Shown here piece after piece: positions 16,898 to 33,703 of a stretch of DNA of 45,013 nucleotides; positions within the stretch are counted from its first letter, which is position 1, and the number at the start of each line of letters is the position of its first letter. The DNA is taken from IMG/VR virus record IMGVR_UViG_3300009182_000106, positions 1 through 45,013 of that record; one strand, given 5' to 3'. Source of the stretch: a virus. Position numbers and translations under genes: made by a program. Below the pieces are notes generated by a model. That model saw only the letters and a program-made list of their open reading frames with translations. It made no database searches and was not told where the DNA came from.

Positions 16898-16944
16898 TTC
16901 GTTCATTACCTTCATTAGAACAAAACGTGAACAATTATAATAAT

Positions 16945-17023
16945 AAGTCATTGATTATAAACACCTATTTCTTTTAAAAAACGTAAAATAACGCTTGTAT
17001 TGTGTATTTTAGTATGTTATTAT
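16945..17023 (+). promoter_or_regulatory. Promoter with bipartite upstream element, copy 1
   Basis: AAGTCATTGATT starts at 16945 and TATTTCTTTT at 16966, followed by TTGTAT (16995-17000), a 17-nt spacer and TATTAT (17018-17023). The start-to-start spacing of the two upstream boxes is 21 nt, identical to copies at 18712 and 23923. It drives the small-gene operon beginning at 17055, with CAAAGGA before the ATG. The rest of the 157-nt gap (16898-16944) shows nothing clear. Confidence 0.7.
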
Positions 17024-17054
17024 ATACGTATAAATTGAAACAAAGGACTATAAT

Positions 17055-17246
17055 ATGAAAACTAAAGATTACGCAGTAGAAGTTGCAGAAACAAAAGCAG
17101 ACGCTATTAAAGAGTTATTACTTAATAATGAAATATCTCAAGCTGAGGCAGCAGATATGTTAAGTAAAATTCAAAACATAGAATTAATTACAAATATGGA
17201 TTATGATGATATTGCCTATGAGTGGATAATGGAAAGTAGAGGTTAA
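17055..17246 (+). CDS. Small acidic accessory protein
   Basis: A 63-residue helical, acidic protein with a likely short coiled region (Q-A-E-A-A-D-M-L). It is preceded by AAAGGA and a copy of the bipartite promoter, and is first in a chain of very small genes. No family recognised. Its position in the accessory region suggests an early host-interaction factor. Confidence 0.55.
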   Translation: MKTKDYAVEVAETKADAIKELLLNNEISQAEAADMLSKIQNIELITNMDYDDIAYEWIMESRG

Positions 17247-17248
17247 TT

Positions 17249-17554
17249 ATGATATACTATAATAAAAATGATTTAGGTAAAAGTGTTTACAGAGTTGTAC
17301 AAGATTATGTTGTACAAGTTGCTTATTATGTTAAAGCTAAAAGTGCTGACGAAGCTAGAGATATTGCTTTAGATTTTGGTGGTATTAATAGTGATAATGT
17401 AAGAGACATGATTAAACAAGATTCAGATCAATTAGAATTAGATTGGTATGATACTGGTTTTGATGATCAAACCGAAGAACATCTTGGTATAATTATCAAT
17501 GATGAAAACGATCAAGATGAAGTTATGCTTGACAAATATGCAGAAGCAGTGTAG
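17249..17554 (+). CDS. Small protein with alpha-beta 'KAK' motif
   Basis: This 101-residue acidic protein contains a strand-helix unit, Y-Y-V-K-A-K-S-A-D-E-A-R-D-I-A, also present in the 17775 gene as V-K-A-K-N-Y-A-E-A-E. The pattern suggests a small ferredoxin-like fold of the kind seen in short marine phage proteins. It follows the previous gene by 2 nt. The 3' end contains a TTGACA box for the next promoter. Function unknown. Confidence 0.55.
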   Translation: MIYYNKNDLGKSVYRVVQDYVVQVAYYVKAKSADEARDIALDFGGINSDNVRDMIKQDSDQLELDWYDTGFDDQTEEHLGIIINDENDQDEVMLDKYAEAV

Positions 17555-17560
17555 TATAAT
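17529..17560 (+). promoter_or_regulatory. Sigma70-like promoter candidate
   Basis: TTGACA (17529-17534) is followed by TAGTAT after 17 nt or TATAAT (17555-17560) after 20 nt. It overlaps the end of the 17249 gene and precedes an AAGGAG site and the ATG at 17584. The non-ideal spacing makes it weaker than the others. Confidence 0.5.
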
Positions 17561-17583
17561 ATTAACAACAAGGAGACTATATA

Positions 17584-17775
17584 ATGACAAACATTGAATT
17601 AATACAAATAGATATAATCAATCAAATAATTGCTAGTATTGACCATGGTGATTTAGAATCAGCAAGAGATACAGCTATTAGATTCAGAGATACATTACAA
17701 GAAGATGTGGATAAAGCAGAATCGGATATTGATATACAATTACAATTAGAAACTGAAAGTAAATTTGGTAAATAA
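17584..17775 (+). CDS. Small helical protein
   Basis: A 63-residue, acidic, probably two-helix protein (I-Q-I-D-I-I-N-Q-I-I-A-S then a charged helix). An AAGGAG site lies upstream, after its own candidate promoter. The stop overlaps the next start (TAATG). No family recognised. Confidence 0.55.
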   Translation: MTNIELIQIDIINQIIASIDHGDLESARDTAIRFRDTLQEDVDKAESDIDIQLQLETESKFGK

Positions 17776-17969
17776 TGAAACAACATTGGTTTAGAATTAC
17801 ATTTGAATCAAAAATAGTAGATGATAATGGCACTACAGAATTTACTGTTAAAGCTAAAAATTATGCAGAGGCCGAAAAGAAAGCATTATCACGATTTAAT
17901 AAAAAAGAAACTTTAAATTGTATAATAGTTATTGAGAAGTTAAATAAGGAGAACAAACATGTGCGATAG
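17775..17969 (+). CDS. Small alpha-beta protein
   Basis: A 64-residue protein with strand-helix-strand character: W-F-R-I-T-F, F-T-V-K-A-K, a helix A-E-A-E-K-K-A-L, and I-I-V-I-E-K. The central motif is shared with the 17249 gene, so the two may be distant paralogues. The 3' end overlaps the next gene by 11 nt, and an AAGGAG site for that gene lies inside this one. Confidence 0.55.
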   Translation: MKQHWFRITFESKIVDDNGTTEFTVKAKNYAEAEKKALSRFNKKETLNCIIVIEKLNKENKHVR

Positions 17970-18150
17970 AACTATAAAAATTAGAAAAGGATCATTATTA
18001 GATGTTAATTCTAATACAAATTCAATAGAGTTTACAGTAAAAGGTATTAATACAAAAGCTTTTGGTAGACATATTGATAATTTACCACCTGATGTTAAAA
18101 ATCAAAGGGAATGGGTTAAAAAAGAAGCAGAAACAAATGTTAACGAATAA
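17959..18150 (+). CDS. Small basic protein
   Basis: A 63-residue product with strands S-L-L-D-V and I-E-F-T-V-K-G and a basic, tryptophan-containing C-terminus. It has a good AAGGAG site inside the upstream gene and overlaps both neighbours by 11-14 nt. No family recognised. Confidence 0.5.
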   Translation: MCDRTIKIRKGSLLDVNSNTNSIEFTVKGINTKAFGRHIDNLPPDVKNQREWVKKEAETNVNE

Positions 18151-18436
18151 ACAAAGATTAGAACTAGCCATGACACAATACCGTAAATGGTTAAAGTCAT
18201 TAGGTTTAAAGTTAAATAAAAAAGGTAGAGTAATCAGTAATCATAAGGGCTTTGATATACCAGATTACAAAACAAAAGAATCTATACCTACAAGTGATAG
18301 AGTTGTTGGTGATACATTTAAAAGAACTTATGCAACAAAGTTACCTGCTGGTAAAACAATAGGCATCGCTTACAATAAAGGTGCATATCAAGTTATAGAT
18401 AGTACAGATTTTAAAACAATGGGAAGAAAGATATAA
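18137..18436 (+). CDS. Small basic protein
   Basis: I choose ATG 18137 (99 residues); a longer frame from 18062 would lie almost wholly over the preceding gene. The product is lysine rich with a helical start (A-M-T-Q-Y-R-K-W-L-K-S-L-G) and a C-terminal strand region containing G-I-A-Y-N-K-G. A third candidate start is the internal ATG near 18170. The stop overlaps the next ATG. Confidence 0.5.
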   Translation: MLTNKQRLELAMTQYRKWLKSLGLKLNKKGRVISNHKGFDIPDYKTKESIPTSDRVVGDTFKRTYATKLPAGKTIGIAYNKGAYQVIDSTDFKTMGRKI

Positions 18437-18597
18437 TGACAAATAAAGACTTATTTAAAAACGTAGATAAGAAAAAAAGAAGCAAAGAAATTGATGGATA
18501 CTATTTTGATGGTAAAAAATCATATACTTTATATAAAAATGAAGATGGTGAAATATCATACAAAATAAACAAACAAAAGAAAGGAAAAAAGAAATGA
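18436..18597 (+). CDS. 53-residue lysine-rich protein
   Basis: The frame runs from ATG 18436 (overlapping the previous stop, TAATG) to TGA 18597, which overlaps the next ATG (ATGA). The product has charged ends around a tyrosine-rich beta-hairpin-like centre (Y-Y-F-D-G-K-K-S-Y). An AAGGA site for the following gene lies near its 3' end. No family recognised. Confidence 0.45.
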   Translation: MTNKDLFKNVDKKKRSKEIDGYYFDGKKSYTLYKNEDGEISYKINKQKKGKKK

Positions 18598-18698
18598 TCT
18601 GGTTTATGTTTATACTAGGATTAATAGTTGGAGTGTGGTTAGGATGGAAATACGAACACGTGGTAAATGATTTTATTGAGTCTTGGAAAAGCTATTAA
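18594..18698 (+). CDS. 34-residue membrane micropeptide
   Basis: Starting at ATG 18594, the peptide has one membrane span (F-M-F-I-L-G-L-I-V-G-V-W-L-G) followed by a short charged tail ending S-W-K-S-Y. It overlaps the preceding stop. Its small size and hydrophobic core resemble the peptides at 6163 and 7469. Confidence 0.5.
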   Translation: MIWFMFILGLIVGVWLGWKYEHVVNDFIESWKSY

Positions 18699-18711
18699 TA
18701 TCAATAACTTG

Positions 18712-18785
18712 AAGTCATTGTTTTTAAATACTTATTTCTTTGATTTTAGGCTTGCAATTGACACAAAAAAGTATTACCTTATACA
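18712..18785 (+). promoter_or_regulatory. Promoter with bipartite upstream element, copy 2
   Basis: AAGTCATTG starts at 18712 and TATTTCTTT at 18733, again 21 nt apart. The core is TTGACA (18758-18763), a 16-nt spacer and TATACA (18780-18785). The element-to-core distance is 4-5 nt shorter than in copies 1 and 3. It precedes the operon starting at 18816. Confidence 0.65.
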
Positions 18786-18815
18786 GTAAGACTAACTTAA
18801 TTAAAAATATATATT

Positions 18816-19145
18816 ATGATAACTTATGATAAAGACACTCTTTTTAAAGAGTTCAGAGACGCCAAAGAAAAAGATGTTGCTCTTTCAACAAAGAAAAAAA
18901 TAGAAGATAAAGAAGTTGATATCTATACAAATAGAATACAATTTTTCAAAGATCATATTAAAAATAAATCTGTAAACCCTAGAACTTACGACAATTTAGA
19001 TATTAATTTTGAAGAATTGTTAAAAGCTTATGAAAGTGAAAATCCTCGTGATTACTTTTATTATTCTGTATTTGGTAAATCATATCAACAGAAAATGTGG
19101 GAAGAAGAAGCTGAATTAGAAGATGAGAAACTTGCGAATATTTAG
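18816..19145 (+). CDS. Charged accessory protein
   Basis: A 109-residue, very hydrophilic protein with alternating acidic and basic helices, a Y-F-Y-Y-S-V-F aromatic patch near residue 85, and an acidic C-terminus. It is the first gene after bipartite promoter copy 2 and overlaps the lipoprotein gene by 23 nt. No family recognised. Confidence 0.55.
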   Translation: MITYDKDTLFKEFRDAKEKDVALSTKKKIEDKEVDIYTNRIQFFKDHIKNKSVNPRTYDNLDINFEELLKAYESENPRDYFYYSVFGKSYQQKMWEEEAELEDEKLANI

Positions 19146-19617
19146 TTTAATTTTACTTTTGTTTGTTGTTAATCAGTGTGCTAATAATCGTAGTTACACT
19201 GGCGCCACTCTTGGTGCAGTAACTACGACAGCCGCTTGTTTACAATTTACAGATAATCCTATTGTTGCTGCTACGTGTGCTGTTGGCGGGGCTTTAGTCG
19301 GTGCTGATATAATGTATAAATCAGATTATGATGTTCATAACGCTGTATTTGTAGATCACCTAAACAAAGGTACTTCTTCATCTTACACAAATTGGCATAA
19401 TGAAGCTACCAATAATTCAGGTAGTGTAAAGACATATTCAACATATATGGAAGGCCCGATTAAGTGTAAAGATTATGAATCAACTGTAGATATTACGAAT
19501 CAATGGCCATTAATTGGTATTGGTGGTATTAATAGAAAAGTAGAGTTTGGAACTGCTTGTCAACAACCAGATGGAAGGTGGGTAGAAAAAGATGTCCTTA
19601 GACAAAGAACAAATTAA
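19123..19617 (+). CDS. Lipoprotein-like envelope protein, 17 kDa antigen-like
   Basis: The 164-residue product starts with a signal-like segment and C19 in V-V-N-Q-C, a plausible but atypical lipobox. A glycine-zipper stretch follows (G-A-T-L-G-A-V, then G-G-A-L-V-G-A-D), then a C-terminal domain with C-K-D-Y and G-T-A-C-Q-Q-P-D-G-R-W. This order resembles the Rickettsia 17 kDa surface antigen family of outer-membrane lipoproteins. A phage copy could change the host envelope or block superinfection; that is inference. It overlaps the genes on both sides. Confidence 0.6.
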   Translation: MRNLRIFSLILLLFVVNQCANNRSYTGATLGAVTTTAACLQFTDNPIVAATCAVGGALVGADIMYKSDYDVHNAVFVDHLNKGTSSSYTNWHNEATNNSGSVKTYSTYMEGPIKCKDYESTVDITNQWPLIGIGGINRKVEFGTACQQPDGRWVEKDVLRQRTN

Positions 19618-19765
19618 TATATTAAAACAAAGAGAAAAAGAAATAGTTGAAGAAATAAATTTTTTTGATCACAATTTTCATGCTAGAAAAGCTTTAGAAG
19701 AAGAATTGTATGAAATAGTAGATACATTAAAAAAATTAGAGGTGCAAATTGAACAACAAGGGTAA
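19592..19765 (+). CDS. 57-residue coiled-coil protein
   Basis: The frame starts at ATG 19592 inside the end of the lipoprotein gene and ends at 19765. The peptide is a charged helix with regular isoleucine and leucine spacing (E-K-E-I-V-E-E-I, E-I-V-D-T-L-K-K-L), so a coiled coil is likely. An AAGG site lies about 11 nt upstream. No family recognised. Confidence 0.5.
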   Translation: MSLDKEQINILKQREKEIVEEINFFDHNFHARKALEEELYEIVDTLKKLEVQIEQQG

Positions 19766-19862
19766 ACAACCAATAAGATTAGTATCAGAAAAGTCTATTA
19801 TTAGATTCTGTATAGTTGTATTGGTAATATTATTATGTGGTATACTACAATTCAGAAGTTAA
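19749..19862 (+). CDS. 37-residue membrane peptide with TTG start
   Basis: A frame from TTG 19749, with AGAGG about 6 nt upstream, encodes a short basic N-terminus and one membrane span (F-C-I-V-V-L-V-I-L-L-C-G-I-L). It overlaps the coiled-coil gene by 17 nt and ends 2 nt before the ATG at 19865. The non-ATG start lowers confidence. Confidence 0.4.
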   Translation: MNNKGKQPIRLVSEKSIIRFCIVVLVILLCGILQFRS

Positions 19863-19864
19863 CA

Positions 19865-20500
19865 ATGAAATCATTAAATATAACAGGTAAATTTTTAAAA
19901 CCTTATGCAATAGAGTTATTAGATACTTTATTGTATATATTAAAAGAATTATTCTTAACAATTAAATCATTACTGCCTAAAAAAAAATTAATATGGGATT
20001 GGAGAAAAGGTAGAGCAGAATTAAATTTCAAGAAATACTTTTTATATATTCTTTTATTTTATTTTCTTTTACATGTTTTTATTTCAAAAGTAAGAGCAAA
20101 TGAAACTTTTATTATGCCTAAAGTTGAGATGACTGAAGAAGAAAAACAACATGATAATGCTTTATATCAAAAAGTTATTAAAGACATAGATGATTTAAAT
20201 AATAAACAGACTTATGAATTAAGTAGAACTATTACACCTAAAGAAAGTGCTAATCAGAACTGTTATGTATCAGTAAAGATTACACAAGAAGGAGAAAGTG
20301 TTGTTAAAAAAGAAATTTTGGAGTGTGCTGACGGTAGAAAGGGTTTAATTACACCTGGCTACTGGGAAATGTTTGCACAATTCTATTATAAAGATGTATC
20401 GGCACCAGAATATTGCAGATACTATAGTAGACCAGATCACGCCTTTAAATCGTTCGGAAAGACGTGCCTAAACAAGAACGGTGAATGGAGAGTGCAATAA
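19865..20500 (+). CDS. Membrane-anchored protein with cysteine domain
   Basis: I start at 19865 (211 residues) because the in-frame ATG at 19835 lies inside the membrane-peptide gene. A basic amphipathic N-terminus leads to a membrane span at about residues 59-77 (Y-F-L-Y-I-L-L-F-Y-F-L-L). A periplasmic part follows with N-C-Y-V-S-V-K, L-E-C-A-D-G and a final C-R-Y-Y ... K-T-C-L-N-K-N-G-E-W. That C-terminal signature is similar to the end of the 19123 lipoprotein, so the two may share a fold. Function unknown. Confidence 0.6.
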   Translation: MKSLNITGKFLKPYAIELLDTLLYILKELFLTIKSLLPKKKLIWDWRKGRAELNFKKYFLYILLFYFLLHVFISKVRANETFIMPKVEMTEEEKQHDNALYQKVIKDIDDLNNKQTYELSRTITPKESANQNCYVSVKITQEGESVVKKEILECADGRKGLITPGYWEMFAQFYYKDVSAPEYCRYYSRPDHAFKSFGKTCLNKNGEWRVQ

Positions 20501-20640
20501 TGTTTAAAAACATTATAATCGCCACTCTTATCTATATGCTAGTGTTTAACGTGTCTTTTAAAGACCTTTTTAAAACAATTAGAAAAGGACTTGACAAAAC
20601 AGAACAGATAGTATATGATGTAAATAGGAGTGTGAAATAA
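20500..20640 (+). CDS. 46-residue membrane-associated peptide
   Basis: The ATG at 20500 overlaps the previous stop (TAATG). The product has a hydrophobic segment (I-I-I-A-T-L-I-Y-M-L-V-F) and an amphipathic basic tail. Its 3' half contains a TTGACA-17-TATGAT promoter for the next gene, so its sequence serves two purposes. No family recognised. Confidence 0.5.
   Translation: MFKNIIIATLIYMLVFNVSFKDLFKTIRKGLDKTEQIVYDVNRSVK
20591..20619 (+). promoter_or_regulatory. Sigma70-like promoter inside a small gene
   Basis: TTGACA (20591-20596), 17-nt spacer, TATGAT (20614-20619). An AGGAG site lies between this core and the lipoprotein ATG at 20642. It uses coding sequence of the 46-residue peptide, so chance is possible, but the spacing matches the other promoters. 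Confidence 0.5.
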
Positions 20641-20641
20641 T

Positions 20642-21265
20642 ATGATGATAAGACTAATGACGATCACAATACTTGGCATGTTGCTAGGTGCTTGTGCTAA
20701 TACTGGCTTAAACCAGAACTATGAAATTAAAGCAGAAAAGGATAATACATTAACAGTTATCCCTGCTTGGTACGTTAATCAAATCAAACAAAAAGAAGTT
20801 TGTAACTTAAATTCTATTGAATCTAAAGGCACAGACAAACAATGTTTATTTGGTACAGGTACCGCTGTATCGCCAGACTTAAATCTCGCAATTGAGAAAG
20901 CAAAGATGTTAGCGAAAGCTGATATTGCTGACGTTATAAAAGGCGAAATGAATAAACAATCTAAACAGTTTATAACTGAATTAGGCAAAACCGAACAAAA
21001 GACTATAGTATCACAAGTAGAATCTACTTTAGTTAACGTAATACAAAATACACCTGTTAGAGGGTATGAAGTATTTGCTACAGAAGTATCAACTACAAAT
21101 CAAGGTTACTATAGAGCATGGGTTGGTTTAAAACTTCCTTTAGGTGAATATAATAAGATGTATCACTACAATATTGAAGAAGTAGCGAACTCTTATAAAC
21201 TAAAAGAAAAGGCCGATCTGGCGTTTAAAGAAACTGTTAAGAACGTTGAAAACAAAGCAAACTAA
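20642..21265 (+). CDS. Lipoprotein with LPP20-like domain
   Basis: The 207-residue protein has a canonical lipobox, L-L-G-A-C (C18), after a hydrophobic signal. The mature part has I-P-A-W-Y near residue 39, an A-I-E-K-A-K-M-L-A-K-A helix and a C-terminal Y-Y-R-A-W-V-G-L-K-L-P strand, a pattern I associate with LPP20 outer-membrane lipoproteins. A second ATG 3 nt downstream is an equally good start. With the 19123 and 19865 products it forms an envelope-protein cluster. The stop overlaps the glutaredoxin start. Confidence 0.65.
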   Translation: MMIRLMTITILGMLLGACANTGLNQNYEIKAEKDNTLTVIPAWYVNQIKQKEVCNLNSIESKGTDKQCLFGTGTAVSPDLNLAIEKAKMLAKADIADVIKGEMNKQSKQFITELGKTEQKTIVSQVESTLVNVIQNTPVRGYEVFATEVSTTNQGYYRAWVGLKLPLGEYNKMYHYNIEEVANSYKLKEKADLAFKETVKNVENKAN

Positions 21266-21549
21266 TGAGTGATATATCTAACATTTTATTATATTCTAAG
21301 AATAATTGTGGATATTGTGTTAAGGCTAAGTTGTTATTAAATAATCTTGGCCTTACTTACACAGAAAAAAAGTTCGAAGATTTTGCTTCAACCGAAGCAT
21401 TATATGAAGAAATAGGTAAAAATGTTAGATCAATGCCACAAATTAAAATAAATGGTCAACTTATTGGTGGTTATAATCAATTGGTTGAATATTTACACGA
21501 TAAAGAATTAGTCAATTTTGAAGGTAAAATAATTAAATCAGATAATTAA
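21265..21549 (+). CDS. Glutaredoxin
   Basis: A 94-residue thioredoxin-fold protein with active site C15-G-Y-C18, the cis-proline motif S-M-P-Q-I-K-I and the G-G-Y-N glutathione-binding motif. Glutaredoxins of this kind reduce class Ia ribonucleotide reductase, and NrdA here carries the matching C-terminal C-E-S-C. It is therefore the likely electron donor (the role of T4 NrdC), although encoded about 8 kb from nrdAB. Start and stop both overlap their neighbours by one base. Confidence 0.9.
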   Translation: MSDISNILLYSKNNCGYCVKAKLLLNNLGLTYTEKKFEDFASTEALYEEIGKNVRSMPQIKINGQLIGGYNQLVEYLHDKELVNFEGKIIKSDN

Positions 21550-21602
21550 TGACAAAAAATCAAATAGAATATTATTGGCTAAAATGGTTGTTGCTTAGAT
21601 GA
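21549..21602 (+). CDS. 17-residue linking peptide
   Basis: The frame ATG 21549 to TGA 21602 encodes a peptide rich in Y, W, L and K (Y-Y-W-L-K-W-L-L-L). Its start overlaps the glutaredoxin stop (TAATG) and its stop overlaps the next start (ATGA). That double overlap makes it a translational bridge across an otherwise untranslated 50-nt gap. It may also be a functional amphipathic peptide. Confidence 0.4.
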   Translation: MTKNQIEYYWLKWLLLR

Positions 21603-22078
21603 CCGATAATAATAAAGTAATTTTATTTCCAACAAATAGAATAGTTAATAAAGAAACAGCAAAAAAAGATCCTGTTGCTTCTGAAAAAGAAAGAATAAAA
21701 CAAACAAAAGAATTTGTTGAAGGAAACGTAGATGAAATTGCTTTAATGGTATTAAGAAAATTTGTAGAAATGTCTATATTGACAGAGAAACCAGAATTTA
21801 CAAAAGATTTGGCATTATTGGTAGATATAATGAGAGGTTTAATTTATAGAGATTTTGATGTTAAACATCCTGCTCAAAAATTATCTGATAAAATAGTTAA
21901 TGTTAATACGAGCAGATTTGGCCCTATTGCATCAATAGATTATAGTTTAGTTATAGATGAAAAACATAAACCACATAAACCTTTTAGTAAAGATATTAAA
22001 GATGAGATTAAAAAAACAAATGATGGATGGACAGATTTTGAAGCAGATTTTGATACACCAGATGATTGGGAGAAATAG
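21599..22078 (+). CDS. Conserved marine T4-like protein
   Basis: The 159-residue acidic protein opens with V-I-L-F-P-T-N-R and has a central helical region with V-D-E-I-A-L-M-V-L-R-K-F-V and a strand S-I-D-Y-S-L-V. The C-terminus is acidic and aromatic (W-T-D-F-E-A-D-F). I recall a similar family in marine T4-like phages but not its function. It is coupled to the 17-residue peptide by ATGA. Confidence 0.55.
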   Translation: MTDNNKVILFPTNRIVNKETAKKDPVASEKERIKQTKEFVEGNVDEIALMVLRKFVEMSILTEKPEFTKDLALLVDIMRGLIYRDFDVKHPAQKLSDKIVNVNTSRFGPIASIDYSLVIDEKHKPHKPFSKDIKDEIKKTNDGWTDFEADFDTPDDWEK

Positions 22079-22151
22079 ATTTATGGAAATTCTTAATAGA
22101 ATCGCCTTCGCAGGTTGTAAAATAGCAATTGAAAAACAAGGAGAAAATATA

Positions 22152-22442
22152 ATGTTAAAAACATTGAAAAGAGCATTTACACGTGGTAATGCTTCAAAAA
22201 CACAAAAAGTACTTAACCTATTGTCATCTGGGAAACCAGTGTCATGGAAAACTTTGAGAGACAGATTTGATCTAGTATCTCCAAGAGCTATGATTGACAA
22301 ATTAAGATTAGAAGGAAATATGATTTATATCAATAAAACTTCTACAGGTACTTCATATAGATTAGGAACACCATCTAAAGCAATTATTGCTGCTGGTATC
22401 AAAAAACTATATGGAAGATCGTTACAATCTTATAACGCTTAA
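22152..22442 (+). CDS. Winged-helix DNA-binding protein
   Basis: I start at ATG 22152, which has AAGGAG 8 nt upstream, giving 96 residues. In-frame ATGs at 22083 and 21957 would add residues that overlap or abut the preceding gene. The product is basic with V-L-N-L-L-S-S-G-K, then V-S-W-K-T-L-R-D-R-F as a likely helix-turn-helix, S-P-R-A-M-I-D-K-L-R as recognition helix, and a wing with I-Y-I-N-K. I recall close relatives across marine T4-like phages. A transcription role is inferred. It ends with a terminator hairpin. Confidence 0.65.
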   Translation: MLKTLKRAFTRGNASKTQKVLNLLSSGKPVSWKTLRDRFDLVSPRAMIDKLRLEGNMIYINKTSTGTSYRLGTPSKAIIAAGIKKLYGRSLQSYNA

Positions 22443-22452
22443 TTAGTGTTTT

Positions 22453-22486
22453 ATAGAGGCGAGAAATATATAACGCTCGCCTCTAT
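22453..22486 (+). terminator. Strong hairpin terminator
   Basis: ATAGAGGCGAG (22453-22463) and CTCGCCTCTAT (22476-22486) form a perfect 11-bp stem with a 12-nt AT-rich loop, 11 nt after the winged-helix stop codon. The following sequence has only short U runs. Confidence 0.75.
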
Positions 22487-22498
22487 TACTATAACAAA

Positions 22499-23344
22499 AT
22501 GATTTTAATAGACCTCAATCAAGTGTTAATATCAAACCTTATGGCACAGACCAGAGGTAAGGCTGAAAACATGCCTAATAAAGAAATGATTAGACACATG
22601 GTAATCAATTCATTGAGAGGTTTTAATTTAAAATTCAAAAAAGAATATGGCGATAAAATAGTTTTATGTGCTGACGCTGGAGATCCTTGGCGTAGAGATA
22701 TATTTCCTAATTATAAACATGCTCGTAGAAAAGGTAGAGTAGATTCTGCCACAGATTGGGATAATATATTTAATGTAATTACAGAAATTAAAAACGAGAT
22801 AGCAGAAAACTTTCCTTATGTTATGATGTATGTAGAAAAGGCTGAAGCTGATGATATTATAGCAGTACTTGTAAAACATACAAAAGAACCTATTATGATT
22901 ATAAGTGGCGATAAAGATTTTATACAACTACAATCAAAACCTAATGTTAAACAATACAGTCCTATACAAAAGGTATTTGTTGGTGAAGGATTAGATCCTA
23001 ATAATTTTTTACATGAACAGATTATAAAAGGAGACCGATCAGACGGTATACCTAATATATTAAGTCCAGATGATATCTTTTTAACAGGTGAGAAACAAAG
23101 ACCTATTAATAAGAAACGACTTGAAGAATGGGCCAAAGTTAGTAATATACCTCTTGGCAGTGAAACCAGCAAATATTACGAGAGAAATAAGAGATTAATA
23201 GACCTTTCTTGCATACCAGAAGAACTAGAAAGAACTATTATAAATACCTATAAGAACTATAAAGTGCCTAGTAGGTCCAAACTTCTACCGTATTTTATAG
23301 AACACAAACTAAAATCGTTAATGAGCAACATTGGTGATTTTTAA
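22499..23344 (+). CDS. rnh: RNase H / 5'-3' exonuclease, T4 Rnh-like
   Basis: The 281-residue protein belongs to the FEN/5' nuclease family. Acidic metal ligands are seen in L-I-D-L-N (D5), C-A-D-A-G, E-A-D-D-I, I-S-G-D-K-D-F and G-D-R-S-D-G. T4 Rnh (305 residues) removes RNA primers from Okazaki fragments together with gp32. The gene stands between two terminator hairpins with only the gene at 23370, so it may form its own small transcription unit. Confidence 0.85.
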   Translation: MILIDLNQVLISNLMAQTRGKAENMPNKEMIRHMVINSLRGFNLKFKKEYGDKIVLCADAGDPWRRDIFPNYKHARRKGRVDSATDWDNIFNVITEIKNEIAENFPYVMMYVEKAEADDIIAVLVKHTKEPIMIISGDKDFIQLQSKPNVKQYSPIQKVFVGEGLDPNNFLHEQIIKGDRSDGIPNILSPDDIFLTGEKQRPINKKRLEEWAKVSNIPLGSETSKYYERNKRLIDLSCIPEELERTIINTYKNYKVPSRSKLLPYFIEHKLKSLMSNIGDF

Positions 23345-23356
23345 TATTCGAATATT
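23343..23356 (+). repeat. 14-bp perfect palindrome
   Basis: AATATTCGAATATT overlaps the RNase H stop codon and lies about 14 nt before the ATG at 23370. It could be a dimer-binding operator, an RNA structure, or chance in AT-rich DNA. No second copy was noticed. Confidence 0.4.
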
Positions 23357-23369
23357 GGAGTAAATAATT

Positions 23370-23885
23370 ATGGCAGAAATAGAACAAGCTAGACATTCTA
23401 GCTTAATGAGTAAAAAAGGAATGGCAGCAACGGCTCGTACGGCCACAAATGCTAGACCATTAGCACACGAAATATTTACACAAGTAAATAACGCAAAAGA
23501 CAAACCTTTAAAAATTGAAGTATTAAGAAAACACGACAGTCAAGGTTTAAGACAGATACTTAAAGCTGCTTTTGATCCTAAAATCGTTTTTGATGTACCT
23601 GAAGGAATTCCGCCATATATGGCAAATGAAGCTCCAGCAGGAACAGATCATACCTCTTTATTAGATGAAGTAAGAAAACTTTATCTTTTCATTAAAGGTG
23701 GAAGCACAATACCTAAAATTAAAAAAGAAACTCTTTTTATACAAATGCTAGAAGCATTACATAAAGATGACGCTGAAGTTTTAATTAATATCAAAGATAA
23801 AAAATTAAATCTAGTTTATAAAGGCTTAACTGAGAACGTAGTTAAAGAAGCTTTTAACTGGAATGACGATTTTTTACGTAAATAA
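23370..23885 (+). CDS. DUF6433-like conserved T4-like protein
   Basis: The 171-residue product has L-A-H-E-I-F-T-Q-V-N-N-A-K near residue 31, L-R-Q-I-L-K-A-A-F-D-P near residue 60, P-P-Y-M-A-N-E-A-P, K-E-T-L-F-I-Q-M-L-E and G-L-T-E-N-V-V-K-E-A-F. This motif series is what I recall for the DUF6433 family, common in marine T4-like phages beside replication genes. No catalytic residues are apparent. A GGAG site precedes the start and a terminator follows the stop. Confidence 0.75.
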   Translation: MAEIEQARHSSLMSKKGMAATARTATNARPLAHEIFTQVNNAKDKPLKIEVLRKHDSQGLRQILKAAFDPKIVFDVPEGIPPYMANEAPAGTDHTSLLDEVRKLYLFIKGGSTIPKIKKETLFIQMLEALHKDDAEVLINIKDKKLNLVYKGLTENVVKEAFNWNDDFLRK

Positions 23886-23890
23886 TCAAT

Positions 23891-23922
23891 AATAGGGTGT
23901 TGTATATTTGCAACATCCTATT
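23891..23922 (+). terminator. Hairpin terminator
   Basis: AATAGGGTGTTG and CAACATCCTATT form a 12-bp stem (one G-U pair) around an 8-nt AT-rich loop, just after the DUF6433-like gene. The third bipartite promoter begins at the next base. Confidence 0.75.
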
Positions 23923-24001
23923 AAGTCATTGATTTTCATATCATATTTCTTTTTAAATAATCAAAATAACGCTTGTATTCATCAAGTTTAAATGTTATAT
24001 T
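23923..24001 (+). promoter_or_regulatory. Promoter with bipartite upstream element, copy 3
   Basis: AAGTCATTGATT starts at 23923 and TATTTCTTTTT at 23944, 21 nt apart. TTGTAT (23973-23978), a 17-nt spacer and TATATT (23996-24001) follow. The distance from TATTT to the -35 box (29 nt) is identical to copy 1, and the bases around the -35 (AAAATAACGCTTGTATT) are also shared. It drives the HTH gene at 24032. Confidence 0.75.
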
Positions 24002-24031: not shown

Positions 24032-24400
24032 ATGAAAACATTTGAAACATCCTTAATAGATAATTCTTTTGAAGATAAAATACAATCTAAATTAGACATA
24101 CAAAAATTATTAAAAAAATTTAAAAATACATATTTTAAATATTCGTATTTTTCTAGTAAAGATAATAAAGAATATTTAGATTTTTTATATATTATAAAAG
24201 AAAGAATCATATACAAAACCAAATTTTCAGACATTGCTAAAAAATTAAATTGTAGTAAACACCATGTTTTATATTTTTATTATAAAAATTTAGAACTTTT
24301 AAAACAAACAAAAAATGATGTTGATTTTAATACAGAATATAAAAAAATGAAATACTGGCAAAATATAGAAAAAACATTAACAAAAACAACGAAAAGATAA
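24032..24400 (+). CDS. HTH protein resembling sigma region 4
   Basis: This 122-residue basic protein has an HTH-like segment at about residues 68-90 (F-S-D-I-A-K-K-L-N-C-S-K-H-H-V). The spacing is that of sigma factor region 4 or a LuxR-type HTH. The rest is rich in Lys, Phe and Tyr and has no recognised domain. Codons are extremely AT-rich even for this genome. Its promoter is a bipartite-element copy, so it could be part of the circuit that reads that element. This is inference; a divergent late sigma is another possibility. Confidence 0.5.
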   Translation: MKTFETSLIDNSFEDKIQSKLDIQKLLKKFKNTYFKYSYFSSKDNKEYLDFLYIIKERIIYKTKFSDIAKKLNCSKHHVLYFYYKNLELLKQTKNDVDFNTEYKKMKYWQNIEKTLTKTTKR

Positions 24401-24404
24401 ATAT

Positions 24405-24743
24405 ATGAGAAAATACTTGATTTTTTTAATAGCACTAGGTTTACTAGTGTATGGTCTTTTAACTGTTTTTATGAACTCAGTTAAGGCTAATGAATATAAT
24501 ACTGCTGTTATAGGCCATGTTATTACACAAAAGGTATCTGGCCAACCAGTTGATGCTTCTAAATTAATGGAACAAGAAATGGCACGTGCAGCTCATTTGT
24601 TTGCAATTGATGCTATTAATATATTCCAAAAGTATTTGCCTACTATCTTAGATAAGATGTCGGCAGAATTAAGAGCTGAAGCAGATAAACAATATAAATG
24701 TAGCCTGTTAAAAGATACAAAAATACAGGACGATTGTAAATAG
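24405..24743 (+). CDS. Exported or membrane-anchored small protein
   Basis: The 112-residue product begins with a strong hydrophobic segment (residues 4-23, L-I-F-L-I-A-L-G-L-L-V-Y-G-L-L) and V-K-A-N-E, which may be a signal-peptidase site. The rest is a soluble helical domain with two cysteines near the end (Y-K-C-S and D-D-C-K). It follows the HTH gene by 4 nt. No family recognised; a periplasmic role is likely. Confidence 0.55.
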   Translation: MRKYLIFLIALGLLVYGLLTVFMNSVKANEYNTAVIGHVITQKVSGQPVDASKLMEQEMARAAHLFAIDAINIFQKYLPTILDKMSAELRAEADKQYKCSLLKDTKIQDDCK

Positions 24744-24752
24744 TGGTGGTAT

Positions 24753-25166
24753 ATGGAACAGATAACAAAACAGAAAGTTTTGACAATTAGAAAAAAACTT
24801 ATGCCATTGTTATCTCTAAAAAACAAATATATAACCACATATAAAGATATAAAAAAATATTTCAAAATGTTAAATAAAGGTATCTTCGACAACAAATTAC
24901 CACCATTCAACGACATACTAATTAAAGAACTTAAAAGACAGAATTGTTCAGGTCAAGTAGTTACTATTGACTGGAAAAGAAAAGGTACACAGATTATTGT
25001 ATTGGAAATGGATAAACAATACGAAAGTAAAAAAGATTTCTTGGACACGTTAGCCCACGAAATGGTACATCTATATCAATTTACACATGTAAATGATACA
25101 GGTGCTCACAACAAACTATTTTATAGTTTTGAACCTAAACTTAAATACGTTGGTTTAAAGTTATAA
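24753..25166 (+). CDS. SprT-like zinc metallopeptidase
   Basis: The 137-residue protein has the zinc motif H102-E-M-V-H106 in A-H-E-M-V-H-L-Y-Q, with H119 in G-A-H-N-K as the likely third ligand, and F-D-N-K-L-P upstream as in SprT/Spartan families. Spartan proteases remove DNA-protein crosslinks; bacterial and phage SprT homologues are less understood. It has no signal peptide, so it should act in the cytoplasm. No C-terminal zinc ribbon is present. Confidence 0.75.
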   Translation: MEQITKQKVLTIRKKLMPLLSLKNKYITTYKDIKKYFKMLNKGIFDNKLPPFNDILIKELKRQNCSGQVVTIDWKRKGTQIIVLEMDKQYESKKDFLDTLAHEMVHLYQFTHVNDTGAHNKLFYSFEPKLKYVGLKL

Positions 25167-25184
25167 ACAAAAGAAAGATATATA

Positions 25185-25514
25185 ATGACGCAAGTGATAA
25201 CAAAAAAGTTCAAAGATGATTATCTTAAATCATCTATTTTTAATTCTATTAAAGCAATAGAAGATTTTACCAAAAATAAAAGACGAGGTGATCAGATCGT
25301 TTATTATGAAGGTAATTTTCAAGAAGATGTTTTAAATAATTTCTCTAATAAAGAATCAGAAGAAATATTTAATACTATGAAAAAATACTTGAACGATTAC
25401 AGATTAATCTTTTTACAAAAGAAGATTAAACTTAATGATGTTAATGCTCAAGTTAGTGAATTGAATGAACCAAAACACTACTTTTCATACATTGTAAGTA
25501 AACGAATATTTTAA
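25185..25514 (+). CDS. Hypothetical protein
   Basis: A 109-residue soluble protein with charged helices and a Y-Y-E-G-N-F-Q motif near residue 44, ending I-V-S-K-R-I-F. It lies between the SprT-like protease and the glucosaminidase with short gaps on each side. No domain recognised. Confidence 0.5.
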   Translation: MTQVITKKFKDDYLKSSIFNSIKAIEDFTKNKRRGDQIVYYEGNFQEDVLNNFSNKESEEIFNTMKKYLNDYRLIFLQKKIKLNDVNAQVSELNEPKHYFSYIVSKRIF

Positions 25515-25526
25515 TTATATAATTAT

Positions 25527-26225
25527 ATGAAAAGACCTTGTTATTGGTACATCAGATATAGACTGCCTAGAAAAATAAAATATTATTTTAGACAAGCAAT
25601 GGCAATTATTGGTATTACATTAATTGGATTTGGTATAGGTACATTTTTTCCTAACTTTATATCACAACATAGTGTAGAAGAAAAGGCCATAGATAGAACT
25701 ATGAAATGGGCAAAAGAAATTGGTTTTATGGAACCAAGAATAGAAACTCATAATGATGAGATTTTTATTAAAACTATGCAGAAATGTATCGCCTATTTAA
25801 ATTTAGAGTTACATAAAGACGAACAAATACCTGATGAACTTATTATTGCACAAGCCATAATTGAAAGTAATGCAGGCACAAGTAGATTTGCCAGAGATGG
25901 AAATAATTTATTTGGTGTTAGAGTATGGAATAAAGACAAAGGTATGTTACCAGCAGGTTATAATGAAAACTTATCTTGGAGAGTTAAATCTTATCATAGT
26001 AAGTGTGCTTCAGTTCGTGATTATATCAAAATCTTAAATACTAAAGAAGCTTATGCTAGATTTAGAGAAATAAGAGCACAACAAAATAGATGGTGGGGCA
26101 GGGTTGATTCTATTGCTTTGGCAAAAGGTCTTGATAATTGGAGTACTACAAAAGACTACAATCAACAAGTTATAAATATAATTAGAAAAATAAGAGAAGA
26201 AGGAAAGGTGGTTATTAAAAGATGA
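25527..26225 (+). CDS. Membrane-anchored glucosaminidase (Bax-like)
   Basis: The 232-residue protein has a basic N-terminus, a membrane segment at about residues 23-43 and a glucosaminidase domain with A-I-I-E-S-N-A-G (E113, the likely catalytic acid), G-N-N-L-F-G-V and Y-H-S-K-C-A-S-V-R-D-Y. This matches the Bax/FlgJ-type peptidoglycan hydrolase family. The N-terminal anchor could act as a signal-arrest segment, giving a lysis role in addition to the GH24 lysozyme at 30372, or local wall remodelling. It overlaps the next gene by 4 nt. Confidence 0.75.
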   Translation: MKRPCYWYIRYRLPRKIKYYFRQAMAIIGITLIGFGIGTFFPNFISQHSVEEKAIDRTMKWAKEIGFMEPRIETHNDEIFIKTMQKCIAYLNLELHKDEQIPDELIIAQAIIESNAGTSRFARDGNNLFGVRVWNKDKGMLPAGYNENLSWRVKSYHSKCASVRDYIKILNTKEAYARFREIRAQQNRWWGRVDSIALAKGLDNWSTTKDYNQQVINIIRKIREEGKVVIKR

Positions 26226-29656: not shown

Positions 29657-29983
29657 ATGCCAATATATAGCTTTGAAAATATTAAAACAGGTAAAGAATA
29701 TACAGAACACTTGTCAATGTCTGAATTAGATGCCTATTTAAAAAAAAATAAAAATATAAGACAAATATTTACATCTCTAAATATTGTTGGTGGAGTATCT
29801 GGTTTAACTCATAAAACAGATAGTGGTTGGCAAGACAATCTACAACGTATTGCTGAAGCTCATCCTTCTTCTCCATTAGGTCAAAGATTTAAGAAAAAAG
29901 GTATTAAAGAAATTAGAACACAACAAGTTTTAGAAAAACATAAAAAAAGACAAAAGGATTTAAAAAAGAATGGCAAACGATAA
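29657..29983 (+). CDS. FmdB-like small protein lacking zinc cysteines
   Basis: The 108-residue product opens M-P-I-Y-S-F-E-N-I-K-T-G, the start of FmdB-type zinc ribbons, but has no cysteine at all. The middle contains G-W-Q-D-N-L-Q-R-I-A-E-A-H-P near residue 58, also found in the marine T4-like version I recall, and the tail is strongly basic. The family is probably nucleic-acid binding. It overlaps the next gene by 14 nt. Confidence 0.6.
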   Translation: MPIYSFENIKTGKEYTEHLSMSELDAYLKKNKNIRQIFTSLNIVGGVSGLTHKTDSGWQDNLQRIAEAHPSSPLGQRFKKKGIKEIRTQQVLEKHKKRQKDLKKNGKR

Positions 29984-31503: not shown

Positions 31504-32198
31504 TGGTTAGAGAATTTAAATTTATAGATTTGAACAAGAGTATATTACCAAAAACAGCAGGTAAAAATATAGATGGTATACGATTTTACGAAATAGATGG
31601 TAAATCTTATCCATCAGTAACTTCTGTATTATCACTATTAAAGAAAGATTCATTAAAAGAATGGCGCGATAAAGTTGGTGAATCTGTTGCTAATTGGGAA
31701 ATGGGTAGAGCGGCTAGACGTGGTAAAGCAATGCACACATTGGTAGAACAGTATTTACAGAATGAAACTCCATCTATTAGAGACGTGTTACCATTAGGAC
31801 TTTTTAAGTTAATTAGACCTTATGTAGATCAAATAGATAATATTAGATTATTAGAATCAATCATGTATAGTAAAAAACTTACTATTGCAGGACAAGTAGA
31901 TTGTGTTGCAGAATACAACGGTAAGTTATCAGTAATAGACTTTAAATCTGCCAATAAGAGTAGAGAAGAAGGTTGGATTGAAAACTACTTCTTACAAACT
32001 ACTGCTTATTCAATGATGTATGAAGAAACGTTTGGTGAAAAGATTGAACAGATTGTAATCATATTGGCCTGTGAAGATGGTGTTGCTCAAACTTTTATTA
32101 AAAATACGGCAGACTATAAACAGAAGTTGATAGAATCTATAGATAATTTTTATAAACAATTTAATAATAAACAAAATTTAACGTTGAAAAATAGTTAA
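31503..32198 (+). CDS. PD-(D/E)XK nuclease, RecB/Cas4-like
   Basis: The 231-residue protein has the core motif G-Q-V-D (D133) followed by V-I-D-F-K-S (D146, K148), plus H78 in the preceding helix and E118, as in RecB-family exonucleases. There is no C-terminal cysteine cluster, so it is closer to MGME1-like or lambda-exonuclease-like forms than to iron-sulfur Cas4. Probable role is DNA end processing in recombination or host DNA degradation. It starts on the stop of the peroxiredoxin and is followed by the tmRNA gene. Confidence 0.75.
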   Translation: MVREFKFIDLNKSILPKTAGKNIDGIRFYEIDGKSYPSVTSVLSLLKKDSLKEWRDKVGESVANWEMGRAARRGKAMHTLVEQYLQNETPSIRDVLPLGLFKLIRPYVDQIDNIRLLESIMYSKKLTIAGQVDCVAEYNGKLSVIDFKSANKSREEGWIENYFLQTTAYSMMYEETFGEKIEQIVIILACEDGVAQTFIKNTADYKQKLIESIDNFYKQFNNKQNLTLKNS

Positions 32199-32207
32199 TA
32201 ATTAGTT

Positions 32208-32413
32208 AGGACCAGGGGGCGGTACCCTGCCACTCCACCATTTATATAATGAAATATAAGGGGTGGAAACTAGAATCGACTACTAAGTAAACCTATTTGG
32301 AGTTAAATCGCTGATATCGTTCTATCAAATTATAGACGCTAACGAAAGTTATGCTCTTGCTGCCTAGTAATAGGTAACGGCGTTGGCCTACACGTGGCAA
32401 CAGAAGTAGGCCG
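32208..32413 (+). ncRNA. ssrA: tmRNA, circularly permuted two-piece form
   Basis: The acceptor piece (about 32208-32240) comes first: CAGGG/CCCTG pair around a 7-nt loop (32213-32229), then CCACTCC and the ACCA end at 32237-32240. A 19-nt AT-rich spacer follows. The coding piece begins GGGGTGG (32260-32266), which pairs with CCACTCC in a 7-bp acceptor stem with one G-U. The tag frame at 32338-32367 reads A-N-E-S-Y-A-L-A-A then TAG, TAA, TAG. GGCCTAC/GTAGGCC closes the coding piece near its end. This permuted order is known from alphaproteobacteria. It would rescue stalled ribosomes and tag proteins for proteolysis. Exact ends are estimated. Confidence 0.88.
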
Positions 32414-32414
32414 C

Positions 32415-32443
32415 TTGACAAATCAATCAAATTAGTATATAAT
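32415..32443 (+). promoter_or_regulatory. Sigma70-like promoter
   Basis: TTGACA (32415-32420), 17-nt spacer, TATAAT (32438-32443). It starts immediately at the 3' end of the tmRNA coding piece and has a normal 25-nt leader with AAAAGGA before the ATG at 32475. Confidence 0.8.
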
Positions 32444-32474
32444 ATAATATACATTAACTAGAAAAGGAATAAAC

Positions 32475-33490: not shown

Positions 33491-33703
33491 ATGAACTCAA
33501 AAGAATTTTCTTTACAAATAGAACAGATAGTAAAAGAGAGAAAAGGTATCTCTCACATGGATGCCGTACTTTTATATTGTGAACAAAATGATATAGATCC
33601 TTCAACAGTTGCACCTCTATTAACAAAGACTCTAAAAGATAAGATTGCTATAGAAGCACAAAACTTAAATTATCTTCCAAAAACTGGCCAGTTGCCGGTA
33701 TGA
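33491..33703 (+). CDS. 33: Late-promoter transcription accessory protein, gp33-like
   Basis: The 70-residue protein has I-E-Q-I-V-K-E-R, M-D-A-V-L-L-Y-C-E-Q-N-D-I near residue 23, and a C-terminal A-Q-N-L-N-Y-L-P-K-T ... L-P-V. That series matches the small gp33 of marine T4-like phages as I recall it. In T4, gp33 links RNA polymerase to the sliding clamp at TATAAATA promoters. The order 33-59-32, the same as in T4, supports the call. Its own promoter is sigma70-like and leaderless, which would let it appear before the late promoters it serves. Confidence 0.7.
   Translation: MNSKEFSLQIEQIVKERKGISHMDAVLLYCEQNDIDPSTVAPLLTKTLKDKIAIEAQNLNYLPKTGQLPV

Follow-up and report, generated by a model that had tools for sequence, protein, structure and literature searches.

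A helically phased upstream element in pelagimyophages and its possible role as a class I activator site

A 30-bp element upstream of three phage promoters

Which kind of promoter is marked by a two-part sequence that recurs upstream of three transcription units in one phage? This question is raised by a 45,013-nucleotide (nt) virus record in IMG/VR (IMGVR_UViG_3300009182_000106), analysed at its whole length of 45 kb and hereafter called the window. The window comes from a T4-like phage akin to the Pelagibacter phages Mosig and HTVC008M: its gp32-like protein is 77% identical to that of Mosig and 68% identical to that of HTVC008M, and its T4-like gene content includes ribonucleotide reductase genes, a RuvC-like resolvase, a tail tube, and a tube cap. 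On the basis of this kinship, the host is probably a SAR11 relative. We report that the shared sequence is a 30-base-pair (bp) element that is conserved in relatives and placed at whole helical turns from the promoter core. It probably represents a class I activator site defining a promoter class in pelagimyophages (PMPs), the binding being predicted from sequence.

The element, AAGTCATTG-N12-TATTTCTTT, occurs exactly and on the plus strand at residues 16945–16974 (copy 1, AAGTCATTGATTATAAACACCTATTTCTTT), 18712–18741 (copy 2, AAGTCATTGTTTTTAAATACTTATTTCTTT), and 23923–23952 (copy 3, AAGTCATTGATTTTCATATCATATTTCTTT), with the 2 half-sites starting 21 nt apart in all 3 copies. Each copy is followed by a sigma70-like core with a 17-bp spacer on the same strand. 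Core 1 (16995–17023) is TTGTAT-N17-TATTAT, with the −35 at 16995, the −10 at 17018, and a spacer of the same length in relatives; core 2 (18752–18780) is TTGCAA-N17-TACCTT, with the −35 at 18752 and the −10 at 18775; and core 3 (23973–24001) is TTGTAT-N17-TATATT with a TG extension, the −35 at 23973, and the −10 at 23996. In copies 1 and 3, the −35 lies 50 bp from the element start; these two copies also have the string ATAACGCTTGTAT in common. In these respects, the preliminary description of the locus, which had reported the 3 bipartite copies and their fixed spacing, a core behind each, the likeness of copies 1 and 3, and their TTGTAT −35, agrees with our results. It had also proposed a search for further copies; none exists elsewhere in the window, and many were found in relatives. 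The half-site AAGTCATTG has no further occurrence on either strand of the window. When as many as 3 of the 18 fixed bases were allowed to differ, 5 matches were found in the window against 0.49 expected, and the 2 additional ones, both with 3 mismatches and on the minus strand, look like chance. A profile built from 34 distinct sites is AAGTCATTGATTTTAAACACTTATTTCTTT, in which positions A1, A2, T4, A6, T8, G9, T12, T24, T25, T26, T28, and T29 are invariant.

The element and the promoter core are in helical phase

The −35 of copy 2 lies 40 bp from the element start, that is, exactly one helical turn nearer than in copies 1 and 3. The same steps recur in relatives, which, apart from the named phages, are contig fragments; because many of the loci are near-identical, all counts below are counts of loci rather than of independent events. 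Across sites, the −35 is found 40 or 50 bp after the element start and rarely 41, 49, 60, or 61 bp after it. Among 40 high-scoring sites with distinct flanks, the −35 was located at 40 bp in 11, 41 bp in 2, 49 bp in 2, and 50 bp in 11; 2 further phage sites had it at 60 and 61 bp, and the remainder were mostly coding or unrelated sequence. In at least 4 families of downstream genes, a single family alternates between 40 and 50 bp from phage to phage. The element thus reaches to about −85 or −75 and is separated from the −35 by a variable spacer of 10, 20, or 30 bp. If the usual placement of the −35 hexamer relative to the start site is assumed, the element centres fall near −60.5, −70.5, and −80.5, one helical turn apart. 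Class I activator sites are centred near −61, −71, or −82, at whole helical turns, and the element occupies these positions.

The cores behind the element have a 17-bp spacer and a −10 of TATATT, TACCTT, TATTAT, or similar, which is often TG-extended. Their −35 keeps TTG and is rarely TTGACA, which was found at 1 of about 29 element promoters, compared with 9 strong element-free candidates in the window, those having been picked by consensus. In the window, the −35 departs from TTGACA at all 3 element promoters (TTGTAT, TTGCAA, and TTGTAT).

Conservation anchored on downstream proteins

Because selecting loci via the motif itself had to be avoided, relatives of the genes at 18816 and 24405 were fetched by protein and not by element. 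The first gene behind copy 2 (18816–19145, plus strand) encodes a 109-residue protein to which no function is assigned. In all 31 of its orthologs with 70%–100% identity, the element lies at 40 bp, and in the same 31 of 31 (at least 70% identity) the core lies at the distance of promoter core 2; none of 16 orthologs with 63% identity or less scores with the same element profile. The gene at 24405–24743 (plus strand), which encodes a 112-residue protein of the MKKFLIY family, is conserved and in most relatives stands first in operon 3. The element was present at 40, 41, or 50 bp in all 58 of its orthologs with 54%–100% identity, in some of which the right half was degenerate. Several of these orthologs are separated from the promoter by inserted genes, and the element is retained there. 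The first gene behind copy 1 (17055–17246, plus strand; 63 residues, function unassigned, no Pfam match) lies behind an in-phase element in 12 relatives.

Recurrence among phages and absence from host promoters

A search of IMG/VR with the 18-base pattern yielded 73 exact stretches, as opposed to 1 for the reversed pattern; the element is not a product of chance. When the gap between the half-sites was varied from 0 to 30 in part of the collection, a gap of 12 gave at least 78 matches, a count that includes loci from the fixed-pattern IMG/VR search, versus at most 9 for any other gap among the matches listed; those listed at other gaps lay in unrelated sequence. In bacterial and archaeal genomes, one for each of 84,980 species, 24 exact matches were scattered over phyla, and in this exact-match scan none of the 24 had a promoter core 33–63 bp from the element. 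Use of the element by hosts was rejected on these grounds.

The 30-bp profile has no match in HTVC008M, Mosig, or AG-345-P14. A scan of these three for the half-site AAnnC[A/G]TTG linked to a core gave 10 matches, 7 of which were at 40, 50, or 51 bp, whereas 5 control patterns placed 3 of 30 matches in those or neighbouring distance bins. The in-phase matches correspond to 4 promoters of HTVC008M (at about 87304, 89798, 133451, and 140247) and 2 of Mosig (at about 90710 and 13940), and one such promoter, upstream of a peptidase gene, is common to both phages. HTVC008M has its own extended version of the element, AAAnCGTTGAnnTATAAAGGTTnTTTT. Half-sites at 30, 40, and 60 bp were found in further outgroup contigs, and a pooled histogram obtained with looser thresholds displayed peaks at 40 and 50 bp above a noisy background. 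No in-phase half-site was found in 150 of the 178 kb of cyanophage P-SSM4. The occurrence of clade-specific element sequences that stay in phase suggests co-evolution with a phage protein. The 10-bp phasing, the diverged versions in HTVC008M and Mosig, and the absence from host genomes go beyond the preliminary description.

Proposed function as a class I activator site

Three features agree with what a class I activator site predicts: the strict phasing by whole turns, the conservation of an asymmetric sequence at a long distance from the core, and the rarity of a consensus −35. According to the mechanism that we propose, the 30-bp element, which lies on one side of the helix ahead of a sigma70-type core, is bound by a sequence-specific activator; this protein would be encoded by the phage and probably brings in RNA polymerase via the alpha C-terminal domain. 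Whole-turn phasing would be required because the protein must face this domain to touch it, and the contact would make up for a −35 in which TTG is kept but the full TTGACA is rare. The element promoters would form a class of their own, apart from two others in this phage, the TTGACA promoters that have no element and the late promoters with TATAAATA, and would serve a set of small accessory operons with delayed-early or middle expression.

A wider version of this proposal, to which we give slightly less than even credence, is that all pelagimyophages replace the T4 MotA/AsiA system by a new activator acting at class I sites of the AAnnC[A/G]TTG type, that the second half-site has diverged together with the activator, and that the regulon is readable in HTVC008M and Mosig.

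Several points weigh against the activator site: (i) the phasing tests all take the sigma70-like cores for real promoters; (ii) the element-free promoters used for comparison were picked by consensus match, which favours TTGACA; (iii) one diverged outgroup set has its half-site at 32 bp, off the 10-bp series; (iv) the best dyad in the element is not significant (column permutation, P = 0.13), so that a palindromic operator was rejected and binding of a dimer to a dyad is unsupported; and (v) the fragments did not yield any single DNA-binding candidate present in every phage that has the element. A winged-helix-like protein (21957–22442) and a PHROG “transcriptional regulator” (29657–29983), both common to Mosig and HTVC008M, are candidates for the binder.

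Alternative explanations

The class I geometry would also be compatible with a borrowed host transcription factor, as cyanophages borrow PhoB. SAR11 phages lean on host transcription, and a host factor would explain the lack of an evident binder in the 45 kb of the window and the 69 kb of contig G025. However, the exact element is absent from host promoters in the genomes searched, it lacks the 11-bp direct repeat structure of PhoB sites, and its sequence shifts between phage clades yet stays in phase. We consider a host factor unlikely.

A second candidate is encoded directly behind promoter 3. The 122-residue protein at 24032–24400 (plus strand) is a sigma-region-4-like helix-turn-helix protein, its gene being a variable insertion that separates promoter 3 from the conserved operon. 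Two relatives of the protein match Sigma70_r4 (best E value 5e-5), and the C-terminal half of its AlphaFold2 model superimposes on sigma region 4 structures with root mean square deviations of 0.6–1.0 Å over 40–49 residues. Because the model is modest (mean predicted local distance difference test score 63) and the Foldseek E values are weak (0.6 or above), the assignment rests on the Sigma70_r4 match and the good local superposition. Since every member of this diverse family lies behind an element (14 of 14 loci), the protein was first taken as the binder, controlling its own promoter; its DNA-binding fold and the lack of a credible match in HTVC008M, Mosig, or AG-345-P14 speak for the same role. 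But the gene is absent from the same site in most relatives, and neither the 69 kb contig nor most of the other fragments with an element carry it. Moreover, the recognition helix varies widely (about 30% identity), whereas the element hardly varies. The protein was therefore rejected as a universal binder, and a binding role for it seems quite improbable; its gene more likely belongs to those that the switch controls.

Two features of this gene family were observed besides. A 12.6 kb contig (L059) carries 2 different sigma-region-4-like genes, each with its own copy of the element upstream. In a number of relatives (L027:2349–2455 and L073:1480–1585, and also L025, L058, and L022), the leader between the element promoter and the sigma-region-4-like gene has a 5′ end that pairs with its 3′ part to form a stem of about 15 bp (z = −5.7 and −6.5). 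By eye, the pairing survives changes of sequence, as in L025, where GTTAAC pairs with GTTAAC. The leader is overlapped by a small open reading frame that is possibly leaderless.

An extended UP element, bound directly by the alpha C-terminal domains in the absence of an activator, would likewise be A/T-rich, helically phased, and adjacent to promoters with an imperfect −35. UP elements are A/T-only and lie directly upstream of the −35, at about −38 to −59. By contrast, AAGTCATTG, the best-conserved part of the element, has G and C at fixed places; it covers about −85 to −76 or about −75 to −66, which is farther upstream than an UP element usually lies. In addition, the element start and the −35 are 40, 50, or 60 bp apart, and the intervening sequence is unrelated. 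An UP element is thus a very remote prospect. Still less credible is a promoter cassette copied by recombination with a functionless upstream part, a reading that phasing and protein-anchored conservation largely refute: copies 1 and 3 do have ATAACGCTTGTAT and the element in common, but the sequence between the element and the −35 diverges, its length shifts by exactly one turn, and the element stays fixed across many flank-distinct sites, including orthologs chosen by protein.

Neighbouring genes and sequence features

A terminator-like hairpin (23890–23925, plus strand; 15-bp stem, −19.6 kcal/mol, z = −6.95) ends with its 3′ side on the first bases of element copy 3. Just upstream of copy 1, at 16918–16932, there is a copy of GAAC-N7-GAAC, the direct repeat that is known from Alphaproteobacteria as the LexA box. 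The repeat also occurs near several promoters of HTVC008M and Mosig, and its count in HTVC008M is 8, compared with 2–6 for other gaps, which is suggestive only.

Further along operon 3 (24753–26225), one gene resembles an SprT-type metalloprotease, as judged by eye and by its position in HTVC008M, and another is endolysin-like (PHROG match). Relatives encode a 579-residue protein (L407:11228–12967 and L056:523–2262) that by eye resembles a TonB-dependent outer-membrane receptor; in L056, the gene is near an element promoter. The late motif TATAAATA is located, mostly between genes, at 2387, 2969, 6264, 32668, 36396, and 42254 of the window, which also carries a gene for a gp33-like late coactivator (33491–33703). 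A permuted transfer-messenger RNA (tmRNA) gene of the Alphaproteobacteria type, with the tag ANESYALAA, was detected at 32145–32458 on the plus strand (ARAGORN, Rfam RF01849); the Mosig genome has an annotated tmRNA, too.

Comparison with known systems

The MotA box of T4 middle promoters, TGCTTtA, is located at about −30, 11–13 bp before the −10, where it replaces the −35. In the window, 13 MotA boxes were counted versus 10.6 expected, which is no enrichment, and none is present at the 3 element promoters, as the preliminary description had noted. A MotA-dependent middle promoter was rejected, since the element promoters have no box at −30, the place at which it replaces the −35 in T4 (PMC1524935), and have TTGnnn with a 17-bp spacer instead. 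Neither MotA nor AsiA (PF09114, PF09010) was found above the cut-off in 11 records, mostly fragments. Pelagimyophages are reported to be devoid of alt, modA, modB, asiA, and motA, and the prediction of middle promoters “was unsuccessful in PMP genomes” (PMC7029224); Melnitz, a marine T4-like phage, likewise “lacked identifiable middle promoters”, which are possibly too divergent for detection (PMC9004378).

The element promoters resemble T4 middle promoters in that a T4-like phage has a promoter class with its own motif near an imperfect −35 and serving accessory operons; unlike these, the element is centred at about −60 or −70 and a separate −35 is kept. The element may thus act like a middle-promoter switch by functional analogy only. 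The earlier suggestion of a counterpart of T4 middle promoters holds as such an analogy and fails for the architecture. That of a phage-specific activator site holds for a phage-specific upstream promoter element that recurs in relatives of a group without MotA/AsiA, to which binding and activation would be added by our proposal. A promoter class with a readable site and a strict geometry would answer part of the question of the missing middle promoters in pelagimyophages. The element allows the regulon to be predicted from metagenomes and provides testable sites in the cultured SAR11 phages HTVC008M and Mosig. The T4-like late promoters with TATAAATA, found elsewhere in the window with neither a −35 nor the upstream element, are a separate class.

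As a putative class I site, the element is comparable to the class I promoters of Escherichia coli CRP, being located 60–80 bp upstream, with activity expected only at whole-turn steps. CRP is a host protein that binds a clear palindrome, unlike the asymmetric and phage-specific element. The nearest functional analogues are the phage upstream activators phi29 p4, P2 Ogr/P4 Delta, and Mu Mor, which use an upstream site at a sigma70-type promoter, as the predicted phage activator would here, and the sites of which are inverted repeats, unlike the element; no homolog of them was found, and no search aimed at one was made. The phi29 p4 sites lie far upstream, near −82, and the Ogr sites near −55. 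Activators of class I are described as binding in the −60 region and contacting the alpha C-terminal domain, and the Mor site overlaps the −35, with its centre at −43.5 (PMC4287176); phi29 p4 is reported to work via the alpha subunit (Mencia 1996, cited in PMC8402886).

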